Positions 5,835 through 56,453 of a stretch of 56,867 nucleotides of DNA are shown here, piece by piece; position 1 is the stretch's first letter; every line of letters starts with the position of its first letter. This DNA comes from a virus. Under the pieces are notes generated by a model. It searched no databases, was not told the DNA's origin, and saw nothing but the letters and a program-made list of their open reading frames with translations. The stretch spans positions 1 through 56,867 of IMG/VR virus record IMGVR_UViG_3300031774_000017, one strand, 5' to 3'. The position numbers were made by a program, and so were the translations under genes.

Positions 5835-5854
5835 TTTAATTTAATTTAATTTAA
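5835..5854 (+). repeat. Four tandem TTTAA pentamers at the groEL start
   Basis: TTTAA is repeated four times without interruption (5835-5854), the last copy ending on the A of the groEL ATG. It replaces any Shine-Dalgarno sequence. A/T-rich leaders are typical of translation initiation in Bacteroidetes. A tandem pentamer can change copy number by slippage and alter spacing, so it could tune chaperonin output. That regulatory role is inference. Confidence 0.5.
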
Positions 5855-7440
5855 TGGCACAATTTGGGGGGCCTAAGTTAGTGAAAGAACTGCACTTTGA
5901 TGACAAAGCTAAGTTAAAACTAACAAGAGGTATAAATAAAATAGCAAATTCTGTAGGGTCAACACTGGGGCCAAGCGGAAGAACAGTAGTAATAGAAGAT
6001 GACTTTGGTAATCCACATGTAACTAAAGATGGAGTTACTGTTGCAAATTCAATAATGTTAAAAAATCCAGTAGAAAATTTAGGTGTTGCTATGATGAAAC
6101 AAGCAGCACAGCAAACAGCTAATATAGCCGGAGATGGCACCACCACCTCTATAGTGCTAGCTCAGGCTATAATCGGCTGTTATAAAGAACAAAATGGTGC
6201 AGATTTTTCTTTTAGAGATATAAGAAGTGGTATTGATAAATACAAAACTCACATCCTTAAAATTTTAGAAGATAAATCAATTAAGATAACTGAAGACAGA
6301 TTAAACGATGTTTCTACTATATCCGCTAATAATGATAAAGTATTAGGTAAATTAATAGCAGATGCATTTCGAGAAGCTGGGGATAATGGTATAGTAGCTA
6401 TGGAAACATCACCTACGAGTGAAACATATGTTGATACTGTTGAAGGTACTAAACTTAATTCAACTTATAGAACGCATCATTTTTACACTAATAAGGAAAA
6501 AGAAGTTTCTGAGTTAGATAATCCATTGGTGTTTATAAGTGCATCGGATATTCCTAATGTCAGAAAAATTCAAGACATCCTGGAGTACGCTATTAAGTCT
6601 AATCGTAGCATACTCCTTATTGCTCCACTTGAGTCGCAGCCGTTAACAGCTCTAGCGATGAATATGGTGAAAGGCAATATTAAGGTCAATGTAATAGATC
6701 CACCTAGCTTTGGACTTAAGCGAAAGGATATTCTCGAAGATCTAGCATTGCTTGTCGGGGCTCAAGTATTTGACGAAAGCCTTGGGGATTCGATTGACTC
6801 AATCACCCCTGACCTGTTAGGAGAAGCAGATAAAGCTATCTCGGATAAAGACGGAACTGTGCTCGTCATAAAAGAAAAATCAAAAGAAGCACAAGAACGC
6901 ATAGAATATTTAAAAACTGCGCTTGAAAAAGAAGATCATCACGTTTTAACTAAACATTTAAATGATCGTCTTGCTTTACTCTGTGGTGGTGTATCTATAA
7001 TATATGTAGGTGCAGATACAGATGTAGAGTTAAAAGAAAAACAAGACAGAGTAGATGATGCAATTCATGCTGTTAAAGCTGCTAGAAAAGAAGGTATATT
7101 ACCCGGTGGCGGATCAGCACTTGCTTTTGCAAGTAAAATGGATTGGGAGATGAAACTTAATCAAGGCGAATTAAAAGGAGTCGAAATATTAAAAGATTCT
7201 CTTATAACACCATATACAAAAATATTAGCTAACAGTGGATATGACGCAAAAAATTATTCAAGCTTTCCTAACTGGGGTTGGGGTCTTGATGTTACCTGCG
7301 GATGTATTAAAAAAGATTTAATAGATAAAGGTATTATTGATCCACTTCTTGTTACTAAGACTGCGTTAAATAATGCAATATCTGTTGCAACTACTATATT
7401 ATCAACCGATTGTGTAATTTCAAATGTTAGAGAAGAATGA
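5854..7440 (+). CDS. groEL: GroEL-type chaperonin (528 aa)
   Basis: ATP-driven group I chaperonin subunit, expected to form a cytoplasmic ring that folds phage proteins with the GroES encoded next to it. Hallmarks include TLGPSGRTVVI (about 37-47), TKDGVTVA (57-64), the ATP-binding GDGTTTSIVLA (93-103; Asp94 matches E. coli Asp87), RVDDAIHA containing the catalytic-Asp position, and GILPGGGSAL. Length is near the cellular norm (about 548), but the Gly-Gly-Met tail is absent; it ends NVREE. The apical-domain region (about 6541-6870) uses more GC-rich codons than the rest. The final ATGA overlaps groES. An ancient viral chaperonin is the likely origin. The identification is secure. Confidence 0.97.
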   Translation: MAQFGGPKLVKELHFDDKAKLKLTRGINKIANSVGSTLGPSGRTVVIEDDFGNPHVTKDGVTVANSIMLKNPVENLGVAMMKQAAQQTANIAGDGTTTSIVLAQAIIGCYKEQNGADFSFRDIRSGIDKYKTHILKILEDKSIKITEDRLNDVSTISANNDKVLGKLIADAFREAGDNGIVAMETSPTSETYVDTVEGTKLNSTYRTHHFYTNKEKEVSELDNPLVFISASDIPNVRKIQDILEYAIKSNRSILLIAPLESQPLTALAMNMVKGNIKVNVIDPPSFGLKRKDILEDLALLVGAQVFDESLGDSIDSITPDLLGEADKAISDKDGTVLVIKEKSKEAQERIEYLKTALEKEDHHVLTKHLNDRLALLCGGVSIIYVGADTDVELKEKQDRVDDAIHAVKAARKEGILPGGGSALAFASKMDWEMKLNQGELKGVEILKDSLITPYTKILANSGYDAKNYSSFPNWGWGLDVTCGCIKKDLIDKGIIDPLLVTKTALNNAISVATTILSTDCVISNVREE

Positions 7441-21729: not shown

Positions 21730-21951
21730 ATGGCAAAATTAATTAGAAAAATTAGTATTGGCACTGATTATAAAAATGAAGCAATGCATTACTCTGTAGG
21801 CCAAGAAGTTTATGGAGGACATACAATTTGTGACATTTTAGAAGAAGAAGGTGCCTATAAAATTTATATTACAAAAAATAAAGAAGTATTACCGTGGAAA
21901 CACTTTAATGGTAATATGGCTGTATCTGTTGAATATAACTTAGATTATTAA
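21730..21951 (+). CDS. Conserved phage hypothetical protein (73 aa)
   Basis: It starts MAKLIRKISIGTDYKNEAMH and contains VGQEVYGGHTICDILEEEGA and KEVLPWKHFNGNMAVSVEYN. The family is one I recall in marine phages near packaging genes, with no function. It looks like a small beta protein. Its stop overlaps the next start (TAATG), so it is coupled to the co-chaperonin-like gene. Confidence 0.65.
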   Translation: MAKLIRKISIGTDYKNEAMHYSVGQEVYGGHTICDILEEEGAYKIYITKNKEVLPWKHFNGNMAVSVEYNLDY

Positions 21952-22541
21952 TGCAATCTTTATTTGAATATATTATATCTACTGAAAATCGCTACAACAA
22001 CATTATTGATGTTGAGGGTAAGGAATTAGTCGTTAATACAGAAGTTACTGAAAGAGATTATATGTTTGTTAATCGTATAGGTAAAATAGTAAAGTTACCA
22101 TTATATAATAATTCAGAACTAAAAGAAAACGATGAAGTTATTGTGCATCATAATGTTTTTAGAAGATGGATTGATGTAGAAGGAATTCAAAAAAATTCTT
22201 CAAGCTTTTTAAATGAAAATGAATATTTAGTTTCTGAGGATCAAATATTTGCTTATAAAAGAAATAATAAATGGAAAAGTTTACCTAATTTTTGTTTTGT
22301 AAAACCTTTATATAAAAAAAATAAATGGGCTCTTAAAACAGACGAAAATCTTTTAGGTATACTTACATATAGTAATAGTAAATTAAACCAATTAGGAGTG
22401 TCTATTGGAGACGTGGTGGGCTTTACACCTGATTCAGAATATGAGTTTAATATTGAAGGAGAAAAATTATATCGTATTTTTTCACATCACATAACAATAA
22501 AATATGGAACAAAAGAGAGACAAGGTTATATTAGCTGCTGA
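21951..22541 (+). CDS. Possible GroES-like fold protein (196 aa)
   Basis: Two segments look like tandem GroES-type beta barrels. Residues about 42-105 run RIGKIVKLPLYNNSELKEND, EVIVHHNVFRRWID and EYLVSEDQIFAYK. Residues about 133-190 run LLGILTYSNSKLNQLGVSIG, DVVGFTPDSEYEFNI and LYRIFSHHITIKYG. The order G.(V/I), GD/ND-x-V, then a late hydrophobic strand copies the co-chaperonin core, but no mobile loop is obvious. The true GroES is at 7437, far away. It could be a second co-chaperonin, a virion barrel protein or an unrelated fold. Confidence 0.45.
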   Translation: MQSLFEYIISTENRYNNIIDVEGKELVVNTEVTERDYMFVNRIGKIVKLPLYNNSELKENDEVIVHHNVFRRWIDVEGIQKNSSSFLNENEYLVSEDQIFAYKRNNKWKSLPNFCFVKPLYKKNKWALKTDENLLGILTYSNSKLNQLGVSIGDVVGFTPDSEYEFNIEGEKLYRIFSHHITIKYGTKERQGYISC

Positions 22542-48187: not shown

Positions 48188-49930
48188 TTAACCATCGCAG
48201 CTTAAACAATTAGGATCCATAGCTGCTGCGGCTATATCTCCTCTCAGTACAGACTCAGTACGCATATAATACAAGGTTTTTATACCATGCTTCCATGCTT
48301 CCATATGCACTTGATTTATCCACCTAGGAATAGCTTCCGAAGGAAAAGCAAGATTAAGTGATACTGATTGATCAATATAATCTTGTCTTATACCTGCCTG
48401 CCTAACTAACTCTAGTTGATTTATTTCTTTAAACGTTTTGAACACGTTTTTGACTGGCTCTCCATCTTCTTGGTTAAGCCTTCCTCTTTCATCATAATAC
48501 CATCCATTGAAGGCATCAATTGCTTGGACAGATCCACCATCGGCAAGAATCTGATCCCATGTATCTTTGTTATCAATCCCAATTTTTCTTAATACTTTTT
48601 TAAGTTCATTATTCTTTCTAATAAAAGTACCTTTAGCAGATTGCTCTGTAAATACATTTGCTGCCCAAGGTTCAATACCAGGTGACACATTACCTGCTAA
48701 TTTAGAGTTACTTACAGTTGGTGCTATAGCGCGAAGATGTGTATTTCTAAACCCTGTACCTACACACCATAATGGTTCACCATATATTTCAGCAAGTGCT
48801 CTTGAAGCACGTTCAGTTTCAATTTTAATTTTTGAAAATATTTCACGTGTTTTAAATTGTGCTAATAAACTTTCATAAGCAATACCTCTTTTTTGCAATA
48901 AGCTATGCCAACCTAATACACCTAATCCTACAGCTCTTCCCTTTTCAGCAGATCTTACTGCATTTTCAAAACCTTTCATGTTTTTAGCTTTTTGAATAAA
49001 TTCCTCAAGAACGCCATCTAAAAACCACGTAGCATCATATATAAGATTTGTGTTTTTCCATTCATCATATTTATCTAAGTTAACAGAAGATAAGCAGCAT
49101 ACAAAACTATGTGATTCATCAGTATGCAATACTATTTCACTGCATATGTTAGTCATATGAACTTTTAAACTATTTTTCTTATATGCTTCTGGATTAGCTT
49201 TGTTTGTATTTCCTTTAAATAAGATATAAGGTTCTCCAGTTGCTTTACGTTTTTGTATAAGCTTTGACCATTTTTTTCTTGCTTCGGGATTTCCGAGCTC
49301 AAGCTTTCGCATAAACTTATCGCCAACGACAGCACACTGGTGCAAGTTAAGTGATTGTCTATTGACATCTCCTTTAGGCTCTCTAATTTCAAGCCACTCC
49401 TCAAAATCGTCGTGTTCAATATTGATGTTAACGCTTGCAGCTCCTCTTCTAACGGAACCCTGATTGGTTGCGAGTATAGTTGAGTCATATATTTTGCAAA
49501 AAGGGACAACACCGTCTGAAGTTCCATTACCTGTAATTTTAGCTCCGGCAGGACGAATCATATTAACTCCGATACCTACACCCCCGCCGTGTTTTGCAAG
49601 TAACATCATTTCTAAATTTTTATTACCAATGTCCTGTATACTATCAGAAACATCAATACCAAAACAAGATATAGGTAAACCTCTGTCTGCACCTGTATTA
49701 GAAAGTACAGGAGAAGCTAAACATAACCATCCCTTCCATATATAATCAAAAAATTTATCTGCAAGTTCTGGTTTATATAAACGTTTTGCTACAGTTTTAG
49801 CAACACGCATATACGCATCACGAGGTGATTCACCATTTATAAGATAACCACCTGAAATAGTTTTTTTATAAACCTCATTATCACCCCATGAAGGGTAATC
49901 TTTACCTTTAACCCAATCGTTATTCCACAT
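48188..49930 (-). CDS. nrdA: Ribonucleotide reductase class I large subunit (580 aa)
   Basis: Reduces ribonucleotides to deoxyribonucleotides with NrdB. Key residues are visible: ISCFGI (Cys89), NICSEI (Asn261, Cys263, Glu265), CCLSSVNL (Cys279), the radical-relay pair YYMRT (Tyr554-Tyr555) and C-terminal redox CLSC (Cys575, Cys578). At 580 aa it is shorter than the usual 750 or more and starts within the barrel region, so the N-terminal ATP cone that allows dATP shut-off is missing. Two stretches (about 48420-48570 and 49250-49580) are more GC-rich than their surroundings. It is transcribed after nrdB and a zinc-ribbon gene. Confidence 0.95.
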   Translation of the reverse strand: MWNNDWVKGKDYPSWGDNEVYKKTISGGYLINGESPRDAYMRVAKTVAKRLYKPELADKFFDYIWKGWLCLASPVLSNTGADRGLPISCFGIDVSDSIQDIGNKNLEMMLLAKHGGGVGIGVNMIRPAGAKITGNGTSDGVVPFCKIYDSTILATNQGSVRRGAASVNINIEHDDFEEWLEIREPKGDVNRQSLNLHQCAVVGDKFMRKLELGNPEARKKWSKLIQKRKATGEPYILFKGNTNKANPEAYKKNSLKVHMTNICSEIVLHTDESHSFVCCLSSVNLDKYDEWKNTNLIYDATWFLDGVLEEFIQKAKNMKGFENAVRSAEKGRAVGLGVLGWHSLLQKRGIAYESLLAQFKTREIFSKIKIETERASRALAEIYGEPLWCVGTGFRNTHLRAIAPTVSNSKLAGNVSPGIEPWAANVFTEQSAKGTFIRKNNELKKVLRKIGIDNKDTWDQILADGGSVQAIDAFNGWYYDERGRLNQEDGEPVKNVFKTFKEINQLELVRQAGIRQDYIDQSVSLNLAFPSEAIPRWINQVHMEAWKHGIKTLYYMRTESVLRGDIAAAAMDPNCLSCDG

Positions 49931-50276: not shown

Positions 50277-51245
50277 TTACCAAATATCTTCAAAGTCTTC
50301 ACCTTCATTAGCTTTCGAATAATCAGTCGGCCTAATAGAAAAGAAATCAGTATGAGTGTGCCCCCCGGTAAGATGGTAGAACCAGTCCAAATCACTCGCT
50401 CCAGCTTCGTCATATTCAAAGTATTTCCCGCTGTTTGAGTAACCGAGCTCAACAATTTTTTCGTTAAGACGTTTCCTGATAAATTGTTTAAGGTTATAAG
50501 ATTTGAGGTTTTCAATATCTCCTTGTTCAAACATTTTATCAATATATCTTTCTTCTGCTTTAAGCATTGTTTTTGCTGCTTTAATAACGTGTTCATAACA
50601 ATCATCTTGTAATCCTTTAGTTTCTTTACACATATGTCTAAATAACTGACATCCCATTTTAGAATGTAGTGATTCATCTCTTACACTCCATTTCATCTGT
50701 TGGCCAATGCCTTTGAGCAAATTACGCAACTGAAAGCTATATAGCACAGCAAAAGCGGAATAGAGACTAACACCTTCTGCAAATGCAGAAAATACAGCGA
50801 GAGACCTGCCAATCCCAATAGGGTTGTTACCAGAGTAACTAACAAGATTATCGAAGCGCTGGGCCGTGGCGGGTTCGTGTAAGAATGCTTCGAAATTTTC
50901 GAGTCCGAGTGTTTCATTTAAATAAGAATATGCTACTGCGTGAATTGTTTCTTGTGAGCCAAACATCATGGCCATCTGTTGGATTTCATATTTAGGAAAC
51001 CACGATACAACTTTTTGGGTCCAATAATCAGAAACCGCACATTCCGTTTGTGCAAATCCCAAAAGTATATTTCCAACCAAGTTCTTTTCTCCTTTGGTAA
51101 GTTTTTCATTCCAATCTTTGACATCACCTGACATTGGTATCTCTGTATGAAGCCAAAAAGCTTGTGCTTGTTTAAGCCAACCTTCTGTATAATATTCTGG
51201 ATATTCAAAAGGTTTATAAGGTATTCTTTCATCAAACAGTCCCAT
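50277..51245 (-). CDS. nrdB: Ribonucleotide reductase class I small subunit (322 aa)
   Basis: Di-iron radical subunit for NrdA. Ligands and the radical Tyr can be placed: Glu68 (FAQTECAVSDYW), Glu99 and His102 (QETIHAVAY), Tyr106 (the E. coli Tyr122 position), Glu157 (FAEGVSLY), Glu191 and His194 (RDESLHSK). This fits a conventional Tyr-bearing class Ia-type enzyme. The C terminus (EGEDFEDIW) is the acidic aromatic tail used to dock on NrdA. It overlaps the upstream 69-aa gene by 14 bases. Parts of the gene (about 50280-50480, 50690-50900) have raised GC. Confidence 0.95.
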   Translation of the reverse strand: MGLFDERIPYKPFEYPEYYTEGWLKQAQAFWLHTEIPMSGDVKDWNEKLTKGEKNLVGNILLGFAQTECAVSDYWTQKVVSWFPKYEIQQMAMMFGSQETIHAVAYSYLNETLGLENFEAFLHEPATAQRFDNLVSYSGNNPIGIGRSLAVFSAFAEGVSLYSAFAVLYSFQLRNLLKGIGQQMKWSVRDESLHSKMGCQLFRHMCKETKGLQDDCYEHVIKAAKTMLKAEERYIDKMFEQGDIENLKSYNLKQFIRKRLNEKIVELGYSNSGKYFEYDEAGASDLDWFYHLTGGHTHTDFFSIRPTDYSKANEGEDFEDIW

Positions 51246-52075: not shown

Positions 52076-52253
52076 TATATTTTATAATTTTATTATTTAA
52101 TAATTTTTTAATGTCTTTATCTAATAATCTTTTTGCATACATTACACGCGCTTCTTTCGCCTTCTTTCTTTGATCAACGTTATCGTCCGATCTACTTCCT
52201 TTTGATTTTGCGGCTTGTAAAGCGTCTTTCCAATTTTGTTTTTCGTAAGCCAT
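52029..52253 (-). CDS. Hypothetical basic protein (74 aa)
   Basis: It starts MAYEKQNWKDALQAAKSKGS, is helical and basic (KKAKEARVMYAKRLLDKDIK) and ends GKHGIYTT. It overlaps the endonuclease gene upstream by 112 bases and the 41-aa gene downstream by 47 bases. The long overlap with the endonuclease gene is unusual, but both frames look protein-like. Function unknown. Confidence 0.55.
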   Translation of the reverse strand: MAYEKQNWKDALQAAKSKGSRSDDNVDQRKKAKEARVMYAKRLLDKDIKKLLNNKIIKYNDIIRIHGKHGIYTT

Positions 52254-52600
52254 AATTTAAATAATTTCCACCTTAAAGGAAAAGATTCATTTGGTCTGCC
52301 TTTGCATTCTATAATATAATCTTTACCAATAAAATCTGGTGTATATTTTATACCTAATATTTTTTTATCTCCTCTATTAATATATTCTCCTTTACTATTA
52401 GCTTGTTTTTCATAACTTGTATTACAAAAATGAAATGATTTTATTATTTCAAAAGTTTCATTTTCATAGCCTTCAAACAATTTATCTTTTTTTAAAGCCA
52501 TGTAAGTATATCTTTCAAGTCCTGACGCAAAATTAATACCATCATAAGATATTTTTTTAGCTTGCACAGGACCTCTTTTTTTACTCCTACGTTTTACCAT
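52142..52600 (-). CDS. T7 endonuclease I-like PD-(D/E)xK nuclease (152 aa)
   Basis: Predicted to cut branched DNA (resolvase) and help to break down host DNA. GLERYTYMAL (Glu29), KYTPDFI (Asp89) and IIECKGR (Glu98, Lys100) have the E...D...ExK pattern and spacing of phage endonuclease I. The basic N terminus (MVKRRSKKRG) suits DNA binding. It lies directly after the 91-aa pyrophosphatase-like gene and its 3' end shares 112 bases with the next gene. The exact family (endonuclease I or a DUF1064-like nuclease) is unconfirmed. Confidence 0.75.
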   Translation of the reverse strand: MVKRRSKKRGPVQAKKISYDGINFASGLERYTYMALKKDKLFEGYENETFEIIKSFHFCNTSYEKQANSKGEYINRGDKKILGIKYTPDFIGKDYIIECKGRPNESFPLRWKLFKLWLTKNKIGKTLYKPQNQKEVDRTITLIKERRRKKRV

Positions 52601-52601
52601 T

Positions 52602-52877
52602 TTAATATGTTACATCCCAGTTTTTATCTGTAGTGTCTGATGTCCAACTAGATTCAGGGTATTTACTTAGTTTCTTATCTTCTTCGATTAGAACAGCTCT
52701 AATTTTTTCAATATAATTAGCGGCATCCATAAGTTCTTCTTGTAAATGATTAAGCCATGTGTCTAGCGTTTGATCATCTTTATCTAAACCAACACCATAC
52801 TTTTTATAGCCTGCTTCAGCACGTTTTTGAATCTTTTCAATTACGCGATTAATTATTTTGTCGTTTACTTTACTCAT
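52602..52877 (-). CDS. MazG/NTP-pyrophosphatase-like small protein (91 aa)
   Basis: The centre KKYGVGLDKDDQTLDTWLNH (about 21-40) is followed by LQEELMDAANYIEKI (41-55). The EEL.DA..Y part matches the first metal-binding helix of all-alpha NTP pyrophosphatases. The rest is too short to complete that fold alone, so it might work as a multimer or be a degenerate relative. It overlaps the GIY-YIG/MazG gene by 8 bases. A role in NTP clean-up is plausible but unproven. Confidence 0.55.
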   Translation of the reverse strand: MSKVNDKIINRVIEKIQKRAEAGYKKYGVGLDKDDQTLDTWLNHLQEELMDAANYIEKIRAVLIEEDKKLSKYPESSWTSDTTDKNWDVTY

Positions 52878-53634
52878 CTTTTACAAATGTTCCGTTAACC
52901 ATTTTACCTGTTCTTTTAGATATTACATTAAATGATTCATCAATGCACTCCTCAATTTTAAATCCTTCTAACTCTGAAAGATTAGCAAGTACTATTACCA
53001 TATCACCAATAGCATCTTTTATTTCAGGTTTATTTTGTTTTAATAATGCTTGTGCAAGTTCACCTGCTTCTTCCATTAATTTAATATATTGAGTTTTACT
53101 ATCACCTTTTTGATAAAGATTACGTTGTTTAGCCCACTCTCTTATTTTATTAAATGAAGATATATTATCTTTAACAAATTCTTTTGTAAATGCTTTATTA
53201 TATATATAACAAGTTGAAGGACCAAATTGACTTGATTGTACATTTTGTAATATCCATTCTATATAATCTTCATTTGTTAATTTAAAATTACCTTCTGGTA
53301 ATTCTAATTCAATACCTTTTAAAAATTCAGCATTAATATCTTGCGGTGATATTTTAAATGTTGTGGTTGCTTTTGATGAGCTATGTTTATTCATTTTTTT
53401 ATTAAATAAATCTTTATATAATTTATAATCTTGTTTATAATTTAATTCTTTTTGTAAATTCCATTCAGCTTTTGATGCTTTATCTATATCATCTGTTTCA
53501 TATAATATATCATATTCACCAGGCTTATAGCCTTGTTCTTTTTCAACACGCTTTTTAATATTAGTTGTACAACCAATTTTAATTCCTGGTATATGATATA
53601 TTTTGTATTTACCTGATTTTAATTTTAATGCCAT
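52870..53634 (-). CDS. GIY-YIG-like and MazG-like fusion protein (254 aa)
   Basis: Residues about 9-65 look like a GIY-YIG/T5orf172-type nuclease domain: YKIYHIPGIKIGCTTNIKKR (GIY as KIY, YIG as KIG, Arg29) and AEWNLQKEL with a candidate catalytic Glu. Residues about 163-250 are a MazG-type all-alpha NTP pyrophosphohydrolase with YIKLMEEAGELAQALLK (Glu188, Glu189, Glu192) and PEIKDAIGDMVIVLANL (Glu204, Asp207, Asp211). Joining nuclease and nucleotide hydrolase suggests nucleotide recycling or cutting linked to pool control. The first motif is degenerate. It follows the thymidylate-synthase-family gene by 10 bases. Confidence 0.72.
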   Translation of the reverse strand: MALKLKSGKYKIYHIPGIKIGCTTNIKKRVEKEQGYKPGEYDILYETDDIDKASKAEWNLQKELNYKQDYKLYKDLFNKKMNKHSSSKATTTFKISPQDINAEFLKGIELELPEGNFKLTNEDYIEWILQNVQSSQFGPSTCYIYNKAFTKEFVKDNISSFNKIREWAKQRNLYQKGDSKTQYIKLMEEAGELAQALLKQNKPEIKDAIGDMVIVLANLSELEGFKIEECIDESFNVISKRTGKMVNGTFVKDE

Positions 53635-53644
53635 ATTTATATAT

Positions 53645-54481
53645 TTAATTACCTACAGACAACGGAGCTTTAATAGCTGGATGTGGATTGTAGTTTATTA
53701 TTCTTACATGTTTATGTTTAGGTATAAATAGTTTTTTATAACTCCATTTTGTTGATTCAACTCTAATACCCTTGTCTAACTCTAATTGTGGTAAAGCTTT
53801 TGAAGTTCTTTCAAGTTGTATGGTAGCTTGTTTTAAATGATTATTATACAAATGACAATCACCTAAATTACCAATTAATTGACCTGCTTTCATATTCGCA
53901 CCTTTAGCTAACATTTCAAGAAGTAAACCGTACATTGCTATGTCATAAGGTAAACCTAAAAATACATCTGCTGATCTTTGTTGCCACATTAAATCTATTT
54001 GGTTATCTCTACAATATACTTGAAAGTTATAATGACAAGGAGGAAGAACCATATCAGAGAGGTCACCTGGATTCCAAGCATTAACCATGAGCCTCCTCGA
54101 GCTTGCATTTTCCCTGATGTTTCTAACCAGTGAAGCCAATTGATCAACACCGTTAGAATTACGCCATTGATAACCATAAACCTTACCCAAAGTCCCGTCT
54201 GTTCTACCAGATCTTCTGTAATCATCATCCCAATATTTAACCTTATGCTTATGTAAATAAGCAATGTCAGTTTTACCTCTAAGTATCCAAATAAGTTCGG
54301 TAAGTGCATGATTAAAAAATACTTTTTTAGTTGTTAACAAAGGAAAACCTAAAGACATATTATGTTTTATAGTTTTACCAAATACAGATAAAGTACCTGT
54401 ACCAGTTCTATCTTGCTTAGGTTTACCACTATATAATATACTACCTAATAAACCTAAATATTGTTCTTCTATATTAATCAT
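53645..54481 (-). CDS. thyA: Thymidylate-synthase family enzyme, possibly dCMP-specific (278 aa)
   Basis: The fold and active site of ThyA are clear: QDRTGTGT (Arg25), SSRRLMV (129-130), nucleophile LPPCHYN (Cys149), QQRSADVFLGLPYDIA (168-182) and GDCHLYNNH. Asp180 stands where E. coli ThyA has Asn177 (GLPFNIA). Asp at this site marks T4-type dCMP hydroxymethylase and lets the enzyme take dCMP instead of dUMP. So it may methylate or hydroxymethylate dCMP. The gene is next to two pyrophosphatase-like genes that could supply dCMP. The part at about 54040-54240 is GC-raised. Family certain; substrate inferred. Confidence 0.93.
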   Translation of the reverse strand: MINIEEQYLGLLGSILYSGKPKQDRTGTGTLSVFGKTIKHNMSLGFPLLTTKKVFFNHALTELIWILRGKTDIAYLHKHKVKYWDDDYRRSGRTDGTLGKVYGYQWRNSNGVDQLASLVRNIRENASSRRLMVNAWNPGDLSDMVLPPCHYNFQVYCRDNQIDLMWQQRSADVFLGLPYDIAMYGLLLEMLAKGANMKAGQLIGNLGDCHLYNNHLKQATIQLERTSKALPQLELDKGIRVESTKWSYKKLFIPKHKHVRIINYNPHPAIKAPLSVGN

Positions 54482-54759
54482 TGTTTTTCATAATAATATT
54501 TACACATATTGTAATATTCAAGCCATATTGTATTTTTATCATATATATGAGGTGCATAATATATTTTTTCACCTTTTTTATATGAACCCAATGCAATTGC
54601 TATTTTCCATTTACCCGGTTCATTATTAATACCATAAGGCGATATTCTTATATTATTATTTATACAATATTGTTGCCATTTTGTTTGGTCACGAGATGCG
54701 GTATGTGGTGGCATTTTATATGCATCTTTTTTCTTTTTACCTACTAACCCGCTTCCCAT
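54478..54759 (-). CDS. Hypothetical protein between helicase and ThyA homologue (93 aa)
   Basis: It begins MGSGLVGKKKKDAYKMPPHT and has SRDQTKWQQYCINNNIRISP and GKWKIAIALGSYKKGEKIYY, then a Tyr-rich end. A small alpha/beta protein is likely. It overlaps the primase-helicase gene by 16 bases and the ThyA-family gene by 4 (ATGA). It may bind DNA (basic N terminus), but no family is recognised. Confidence 0.6.
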   Translation of the reverse strand: MGSGLVGKKKKDAYKMPPHTASRDQTKWQQYCINNNIRISPYGINNEPGKWKIAIALGSYKKGEKIYYAPHIYDKNTIWLEYYNMCKYYYEKQ

Positions 54760-56453
54760 GGCATTATTTCATTTGATACATCAAATACTGGTATATAATT
54801 ACCACTAGTATGATCCCATTTAAAATGAGCTTCAGCTTGATTTTCACCTAAGTTTTGAAACTTTACTTTTAACACTTTAACTTTAACAGTTTTTTTATTA
54901 TAATCACGATGCACAAGTAACCCATGATAGGAAGCGTCGTACCATTCTCCACCTCCTTTAATATTGTACATATTTGGTTCATCAATTGTTCCATCTTCTT
55001 TTTTATACATTTTAGTTGGGTGTGCTACAACTATAACTAATACATCATGCTTTTTAGCAAACGCTTCTATACGTGTTAAATATTCCATAGTTGCATCAGG
55101 TATACTCATATTAGCAGATCCATTCATTTTTATTTTATTATATGGATCAATAACTAGACATTTAATACCTTTACGCTTTACAAGTTCAGCACCTTTTTGT
55201 AATACAGCGTCTAAATCATATCTTTCATTTTCAATAAAATAAAAGTTATCATTTACAACTTCTGTTACTTCATTCCATTTATCAGAGTTTATATCTGCTT
55301 TTGATGGCATCCAGTCACCAATTTTACGCATTAATTTGTGTGCATGTAAAAATGTTGGCTTATTTTCTGGTGAAGCAAATGCTGTTTTCCAACCATATTT
55401 TAAGTTGTATCCAACCACCATTCTATCAACAAAATCAGACTTACCGCTAGAAGGCACGCCTGTGACGGTAATAAATTGTCCGGTATAAGTTGAAAATATG
55501 CTGTCAAAATTATCAAGGCCAATTTGATAGCCAGGTTTAAATCCTTCATGAATAAATTCTTGTAATTCTTCTGTTATATCATTTAATGTAACTACATTCT
55601 CTAAAGGAACAGGATTAGCTTCATCAACAAGACGCTTAAGCATGCTACTGCTGTGCCCCAACATATATTCATTAGCATCTTTGAAGTCGCTAAAACTAAT
55701 TGTATAGCAGACTTCTGCTCCAAAACGTCTAATGAGTTCTTGTTGTAAATTTTGTCCAGCTTCATCTCCATCGACTGCGATAATAATTTTGGATTTGTCT
55801 TCAAAATATTCAATGCAGTTATCGAGGTAATCAAGATTAAGGCGATTAAGAGTAGCTCCGTTCGGAACACTAACCACAGAGTTGACTTTAGATTCCATAA
55901 AAGATAAAGCATCCATTTCTCCTTCCACAATAACCACGTAATCATGCCCAATTGTACTATCAATATTATAAAATATTTTTTCTGCTCCTTTAACAAGCTT
56001 AAAGTTTTTTCTACCATCTCTATATTTTACATTTATTAAATCATTATTTATAAAATAATTAAATTGTATTGTATTTTCTTTTTTACTTGTTTGAGGCATC
56101 CATTCCTCACCTTCAGTTATTTTAGCTTTTATTAATGTTGATTGAGATATACCTCTCGATTCAAACCATTTAACAGCTTTATCACTGAGTAATACATTAT
56201 TTTTCCATTCAGGTTTAATATAGGTTTTGTCTATATTACCTTTTCTTTTATATGTATGTAATTGAAATACAGTATCACAATTCATACAAGTTCCGAGACC
56301 ACGCTCCCAATCGTACATAGCACATTTAGCTTTACGATTCTGTGGTTTACGATTAGCAGAGCAAAGAGGGCATATACCCTCTTGCTTGCCAACCTCTAAT
56401 TTATGTTGATTGAATGTATCAATCTGAAAACCATTAATCTCGGTAGTGTTCAT
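54744..56453 (-). CDS. Primase-helicase, T7 gp4/Twinkle type (569 aa)
   Basis: Bifunctional replication enzyme. The zinc ribbon has CPLC (28-31) and CMNC (56-59), followed by TOPRIM motifs VIVEGEMDAL (174-183) and VDGDEAG (227-233). The RecA-like helicase has Walker A GVPSSGKS (332-339), Walker B CLVIDPYN (432-439; Asp436) and AHPTKM (477-482). So both priming and unwinding sites appear intact. Length equals T7 gp4 (566). The stop overlaps the next gene by 16 bases and the start overlaps SSB by 1. Islands around 55420-55540, 55610-55930 and 56270-56400 have raised GC. Confidence 0.93.
   Translation of the reverse strand: MNTTEINGFQIDTFNQHKLEVGKQEGICPLCSANRKPQNRKAKCAMYDWERGLGTCMNCDTVFQLHTYKRKGNIDKTYIKPEWKNNVLLSDKAVKWFESRGISQSTLIKAKITEGEEWMPQTSKKENTIQFNYFINNDLINVKYRDGRKNFKLVKGAEKIFYNIDSTIGHDYVVIVEGEMDALSFMESKVNSVVSVPNGATLNRLNLDYLDNCIEYFEDKSKIIIAVDGDEAGQNLQQELIRRFGAEVCYTISFSDFKDANEYMLGHSSSMLKRLVDEANPVPLENVVTLNDITEELQEFIHEGFKPGYQIGLDNFDSIFSTYTGQFITVTGVPSSGKSDFVDRMVVGYNLKYGWKTAFASPENKPTFLHAHKLMRKIGDWMPSKADINSDKWNEVTEVVNDNFYFIENERYDLDAVLQKGAELVKRKGIKCLVIDPYNKIKMNGSANMSIPDATMEYLTRIEAFAKKHDVLVIVVAHPTKMYKKEDGTIDEPNMYNIKGGGEWYDASYHGLLVHRDYNKKTVKVKVLKVKFQNLGENQAEAHFKWDHTSGNYIPVFDVSNEIMPWEAG

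Follow-up and report, generated by a model that had tools for sequence, protein, structure and literature searches.

The stretch of viral DNA analysed here (56,867 bp, virus record IMGVR_UViG_3300031774_000017, hereafter the window) encodes a homologue of thymidylate synthase (TS) that carries an aspartate where TS has an asparagine, and we put the chance at roughly 60% that this TS-fold enzyme uses dCMP to make 5-methyl-dCMP, that a MazG-type neighbour feeds dCMP to it, that 5-methylcytosine (5mC) enters the phage DNA and that the enzyme gene is an exchangeable cassette. The gene is part of a compact minus-strand block that also encodes a primase-helicase, a 93-aa protein, a T5orf172-MazG fusion, a 91-aa protein, a DUF1064 protein and both ribonucleotide reductase subunits (Table 1).

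Table 1. The TS homologue, its key codons and the surrounding gene block (window coordinates)
Feature	Position	Strand	Basis
Primase-helicase (Toprim + DnaB-like), bounding the exchangeable slot upstream	54744..56453	-	profiles, primase tree
93-aa conserved protein between primase-helicase and TS homologue	54478..54759	-	ORF, conservation
Asp-type thymidylate synthase homologue, 278 aa, predicted dCMP C5-methylase	53645..54481	-	ORF, PF00303, alignment, predicted fold
Codon TGT of catalytic Cys149; next residue, His150, TS-like	54035..54037	-	alignment
Codon GAC of Asp180 (E. coli TS Asn177, T4 dCMP hydroxymethylase Asp179)	53942..53944	-	alignment
T5orf172 (GIY-YIG-like) + MazG/PRA-PH all-alpha NTP pyrophosphohydrolase fusion; putative dCTP to dCMP	52870..53634	-	profiles, motif, fold
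91-aa conserved protein, same block	52602..52877	-	conservation
DUF1064 / Holliday-junction-resolvase-like endonuclease, same block	52142..52600	-	profile, conservation
Ribonucleotide reductase small subunit, same block	50277..51245	-	profile
Ribonucleotide reductase large subunit, same block	48188..49930	-	profile

The host of this uncultured phage is probably a member of the Bacteroidota, since the terminase nearest to that of the window belongs to the uncultured podovirus MW202828 (63%) and further near terminases to Flavobacterium, Cellulophaga, Tenacibaculum and Maribacter phages, and since the window has GroEL and GroES-like genes, as does the Flavobacterium elemo phage examined. The phage-encoded GroEL and GroES-like protein are found at positions 5854-7440 and 21951-22541 of the window. 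MW202828.1 also holds a gene annotated as FAD-dependent thymidylate synthase (ThyX, 58958-59632), which was not found in 26 records carrying the window's type of enzyme (window-type records).

That the homologue belongs to the TS superfamily is established by a full-length profile match, its catalytic cysteine and its fold: the open reading frame starts with ATG and matches PF00303 with an E-value of 5e-89 over profile positions 1-266 of 266, Cys149 aligns with C146 of E. coli TS and C148 of T4 dCMP hydroxymethylase, and the predicted structure (mean pLDDT 93.1) superposes on M. tuberculosis ThyA with a VIA-align Z-score of 37.2 and an rmsd of 1.3 over 258 residues, while a fold search against viral models found nothing beyond TS. 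The switch of substrate that accompanies the change from Asn to Asp in TS is textbook knowledge, and a sequence-only reading of this DNA had placed Asp180 at the asparagine site. The alignment bears this out, as Asp180 sits in the segment GLPYDIA and is without any gap the true equivalent of N177 of E. coli TS and D179 of the T4 enzyme. The window enzyme consequently has at position 177 not the asparagine of dUMP-specific thymidylate synthases but the aspartate of the dCMP-specific members of the superfamily. Furthermore, aspartate is found here in all of the 80 closest viral relatives in IMG/VR (58-71% identity), whereas asparagine occupies the position in 77 of the 80 closest bacterial and archaeal matches, the other three (L087-L089) being phage-like contigs of the Asp clade that were binned with MAGs and carry Asp, and likewise in 10/10 of the closest sampled TS from cultured phages or phage records (about 41-46% identity). 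In the TS tree the Asp clade makes up one side of a branch with an SH-aLRT of 96, but the outgroup, T4 dCMP hydroxymethylase, sits on a very long branch and does not fix the place of the clade relative to canonical TS. Outside the clade, two scans yielded Asp in just two contigs among 112 further viral TS (L254:3001-3807 and L282:2974-3972), apparently through independent Asn-to-Asp changes; a DHFR gene lies near the former, and genes for dCMP deaminase and dUTPase lie near the latter.

The claim that all other catalytic residues are kept holds for R25, E62, W84, Y102, R129, R130, C149, H150, R169, S170, D172, H210 and Y212, but fails for Trp83 of E. coli TS, which controls solvent access and in place of which the window enzyme has a loop with an insertion and without tryptophan. 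With the exception of Trp83, the TS catalytic residues checked are invariant throughout the window clade, including His150, the counterpart of which is threonine in T4 dCMP hydroxymethylase and, in most alignments, proline in Xp12-like enzymes; the Leu163 of E. coli TS is moreover replaced by tryptophan in every member. With its remaining catalytic residues, tail and fold so TS-like, and as the single TS-family gene per genome in the apparent absence of ThyX, the enzyme might be taken for an ordinary thymidylate synthase that converts dUMP to dTMP and merely tolerates aspartate. We find this quite improbable, however, since the aspartate is invariant over deep divergence at a site where Asn is otherwise near-universal, since Asn-to-Asp changes move TS towards dCMP (PMC8670742), and since the enzyme shares its genomic slot with hydroxymethylases, as described below. 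A second TS or a ThyX that might free the window gene for another role was also considered and dropped: no second PF00303 gene was found in window-type or hydroxymethylase-type records, save copies at record ends, and ThyX was found in 0/26 window-type records, which may be incomplete. The invariant Asp, the adjoining MazG-type gene and the T4/MilA-type hydroxymethylases that take the place of the enzyme in sister phages together strongly support dCMP as the predicted substrate, and the dCMP specificity proposed in the sequence-only reading is to this extent well founded.

As to the product, published marks of hydroxymethylases are an acidic residue at Cys-3, Ser or Thr two positions before the active-site Tyr and the absence of the C-terminal TS tail, and the D145N change alone already abolishes formation of 5-hydroxymethyl-dCMP (Park et al., PMC6400193). 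The window enzyme differs in all three respects: it has Leu146 at Cys-3 (Leu in 83/83 of the clade) and Lys100 two before Tyr102 (a position held by Pro or Lys in 78/80 relatives and by Ser in 1/80), and it has the tail HPAIKAPLSVGN (IKAPLSV), the strict TS tail motif being matched by 75 of the 84 window-clade ORFs and the remaining nine being close variants. According to work cited in PMC8670742, a single Asn-to-Asp change at the 177 site converts TS to a dCMP methylase. The features of an N229D-like dCMP methylase, namely Asp at 177, Leu at C-3, His147 and the C-terminal lid, are all present in the window enzyme. Among the L. casei TS chains matched by phmmer in the PDB, 1njc, the N229D mutant, came first with 216.3 bits, ahead of the wild type with 213.8. 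Since the TS tail, Leu146 and His150 are kept and the hydroxymethylase residues are absent, the likeliest interpretation of the window enzyme is that of a natural equivalent of the engineered N229D dCMP methylase, with 5-methyl-dCMP as its probable product; of the two products allowed by the sequence-only reading, 5-hydroxymethyl-dCMP has become the less likely with all three signatures missing, and 5-methyl-dCMP fits better.

It could nonetheless be argued that the enzyme is a dCMP-specific hydroxymethylase, in which water and not hydride adds to the exocyclic methylene to give 5-hydroxymethyl-dCMP and DNA containing 5-hydroxymethylcytosine (5hmC). T4/MilA-type enzymes fill the same slot by the same MazG gene in sister phages, and were the product constant through the swaps, the window enzyme might represent an unusually built hydroxymethylase. 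In addition, without an equivalent of Trp83 the active site could be accessible to water, a phage DHFR was not found although a hydride-transfer enzyme would tax DHFR, and a carbamoyltransferase, of a class with known activity on 5hmC (PMC8670742), is encoded by one relative. The acidic residue at C-3, the Ser/Thr-x-Tyr and the loss of the tail (the marks of PMC6400193) are however all missing in the clade, and the carbamoyltransferase occurs in 1/26 window-type records and 0/24 hydroxymethylase-type records and lies far from the cassette beside an O-fucosyltransferase-like gene, so that hydroxymethylation seems unlikely, though it is the main rival reading. The gene in question (L298:5387-6871 in G034) encodes a full O-carbamoyltransferase (PF02543 and PF16861) and also neighbours a 181-aa gene; a role in decorating 5hmC was rejected on account of its solitary occurrence and its position.

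The gene that starts 10 bp after the TS gene in the window encodes a MazG/PRA-PH all-alpha NTP pyrophosphohydrolase, as judged by a PF03819 match of 30.1 bits (cut-off 22) and by the motif KLMEEAGEL...EIKDAIGD (EExxE...ExxD). It may act on dCTP; its fold gives a Z-score of 9.8 to MazG-like proteins and one of 8.1-8.6, thus no higher, to the mouse and human dCTPases. MazG is found in 82/84 window-clade members, the other two being contigs that end before its position, and is the next gene after the TS homologue in 67 of the 82 and slightly further downstream in the others. At L065:10785-11339 and 11 other loci a CAP-superfamily (PF00188) gene lies between the two. In essentially all members T5orf172 is fused to MazG (250-296 aa if complete), and this part of the fusion may perhaps bind DNA or cut unmodified DNA. 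PRA-PH and TS domains likewise co-occur in modified-cytosine contigs (PMC8670742), but it should also be mentioned that a MazG/PRA-PH-like gene is found in a related phage without an Asp-type TS, which counts against our overall reading.

The slot itself was surveyed by anchoring on its neighbours, the primase-helicase and MazG, thereby avoiding bias from a TS query, and an Asp-type TS-superfamily enzyme was found between both neighbours in 114/114 loci, comprising 67 window-type enzymes, 45 T4/MilA-type hydroxymethylases and two of a third type, where some contigs were found by both scans and at least six contigs, at least mostly window-type, are counted twice, so that the independent cases are somewhat fewer. 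The hydroxymethylase type is short, mostly 213-235 aa (for example L386:3337-3996, L305:3835-4476, L413:3025-3666 and about 47 more loci), has DTPC in 50/50, SNYG in 49/50 and both Thr149 and Asp179 in 50/50, lacks the TS tail, and finds its best PDB matches in the CMP hydroxymethylase MilA (7e-17) and T4 dCMP hydroxymethylase (5e-13), above any TS. Its nearest cultured relatives are found in Bacteroides phages such as BF486P2 (47%), where they are annotated as deoxycytidylate 5-hydroxymethyltransferase. The third type (L304:4304-5086 and L326:1685-2467) shares about 41-43% identity with the window enzyme and combines Asp at 177 with Tyr at 147 and the sequence LPCCY, in which a Cys precedes the catalytic one.

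In a tree of the adjacent primase at least 10 switches between the two main enzyme types are required, at least five of which are forced by strongly supported branches. The DNA of the window-type locus L013 and the hydroxymethylase-type locus L413 is 88.7% identical up to the enzyme and unalignable across it, with 75% identity in MazG and 86-90% beyond, and the window terminase shares 80.9% identity with the terminase of a hydroxymethylase-type phage, as opposed to 64-75% with those of five window-type phages. Given these switches, flanks and terminase identities, the enzyme has been exchanged in place among phages with a common core genome, and the locus looks like a cytosine-modification cassette. 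5-Hydroxymethyl-dCMP cannot become dTMP, and the alternation with hydroxymethylases is therefore the best argument we have that the slot serves cytosine modification and not dTTP supply. This speaks against a detour to thymidylate, in which dCMP would be converted to 5-methyl-dCMP and by a deaminase to dTMP, the gene mainly feeding dTTP and the DNA being normal. Such a route is suggested by the title of an article on Xp12 (Kuo et al., 1982), which announces a new thymidylate biosynthesis, by the nearby dCMP deaminase genes of Xp12 relatives and of the Asp-type virus contig L282, and by the ThyX of MW202828, the nearest terminase relative. Besides the replacement by hydroxymethylases, however, dCMP deaminase is found in none of 26 window-type (possibly incomplete) and 24 hydroxymethylase-type records, and we regard the detour as very unlikely.

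The sequence-only reading had also suggested a search past the right edge of the window for a dNMP kinase and a glucosyl- or other transferase, but neither a T4-type dNMP kinase nor a conserved transferase was found in 26 relatives. The genes upstream of the slot in relatives encode an Erf annealing protein, a PDDEXK exonuclease, in some cases DNA ligase, and DnaA-like proteins, and a T4-like pathway in this region was rejected, since neither a dNMP kinase nor a C5-methyltransferase is among them. In the 26 window-type records, which may be incomplete, T4-type dNMP kinase (DNMK), C5-methyltransferase and DHFR were likewise not found, and a comparison of five phages against five gave no base-decorating enzyme among the families specific to hydroxymethylase-type phages. 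That phage dNMP kinase, DHFR and dCMP deaminase were not found in the 26 window-type records counts against our overall reading.

From sequence, alignment, predicted fold, conservation, gene order and swaps we infer the substrate, the product, the role of MazG, the virion base and its protective effect as follows. Asp180, the site being invariant and experimentally well understood, would read and protonate N3 of cytosine and so select dCMP over dUMP. Cys149 would attack C6, the carbon would come from methylene-tetrahydrofolate, and hydride transfer would most likely end the reaction to give 5-methyl-dCMP. The MazG-type neighbour would most likely convert dCTP to dCMP, thereby both feeding the enzyme and depleting normal dCTP. 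Host kinases and the host DNA polymerase would then place 5-methylcytosine in the phage DNA, where it may guard against cytosine-sensitive host nucleases, so that modified virion DNA would provide escape from restriction.

Like the engineered N229D (L. casei) and N177D (E. coli) TS, the window enzyme has Asp in a TS-type site together with the His and the C-terminal lid, but it is natural, phage-encoded, about 42-45% identical to the TS of E. coli and M. tuberculosis, and its clade features L163W, S180M, F176Y and the loss of Trp83. The cytosines of phage Xp12 are all 5-methylcytosine (PMC9206674), and its relative DLP4 served as stand-in for 5mC phages of the Xp12 type. The TS homologue of DLP4 shares with the window enzyme the Asp at 177, the GLPYD motif and an adjoining nucleotide pyrophosphohydrolase gene; Xp12-type enzymes are however 25% identical to the window enzyme, lack both His147 (mostly Pro) and the TS tail, have Asn at C-3, and are accompanied by dCMP deaminase and DHFR genes, neither of which was found around the window enzyme. 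That the TS homologue makes 5mC in Xp12 has itself been deduced from the chemistry of the phage. T4 gp42 and MilA likewise combine the TS fold with Asp for cytosine, and proteins of their type occupy the slot in sister phages, but their Asp at C-3, Ser-x-Tyr and Thr149 are absent from the window enzyme, in which the TS tail is present. Finally, Asp at 177 and co-occurrence of TS and PRA-PH marked modified-cytosine contigs from sewage and coastal samples (MetaGPA, PMC8670742), and the window phage has both, although position 147, the second marker there, remains His in the window enzyme and the window has no carbamoyltransferase.

The Asn/Asp marker and its association with modified-cytosine viral contigs are thus already published (PMC8670742). 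As far as the open-access literature searched shows, it is new that a canonical-looking TS occurs naturally in the N177D state in a large phage family from mostly aquatic settings, as is the repeated in-place exchange of such a TS with T4-type hydroxymethylases. To our knowledge few 5mC phages are known, and these rest on divergent enzymes. At the critical residue the natural TS of the window differs family-wide from its canonical counterparts, and yet it would keep TS chemistry; together with the hydroxymethylase-type enzymes it provides a natural pair in which to study why some members of the TS superfamily add methyl and others hydroxymethyl. The alternation in the slot furthermore makes it testable whether phages switch the chemistry of their DNA modification to follow Type IV and modification-dependent defences of the host. 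We consider the odds about even that cassettes for dCMP C5-methylase and for dCMP hydroxymethylase repeatedly replace each other in a dedicated slot of this phage family, so that near-identical phages carry 5mC or 5hmC and presumably escape changing modification-dependent host defences; if true, this would amount to a switching of DNA chemistry akin to antigenic variation.
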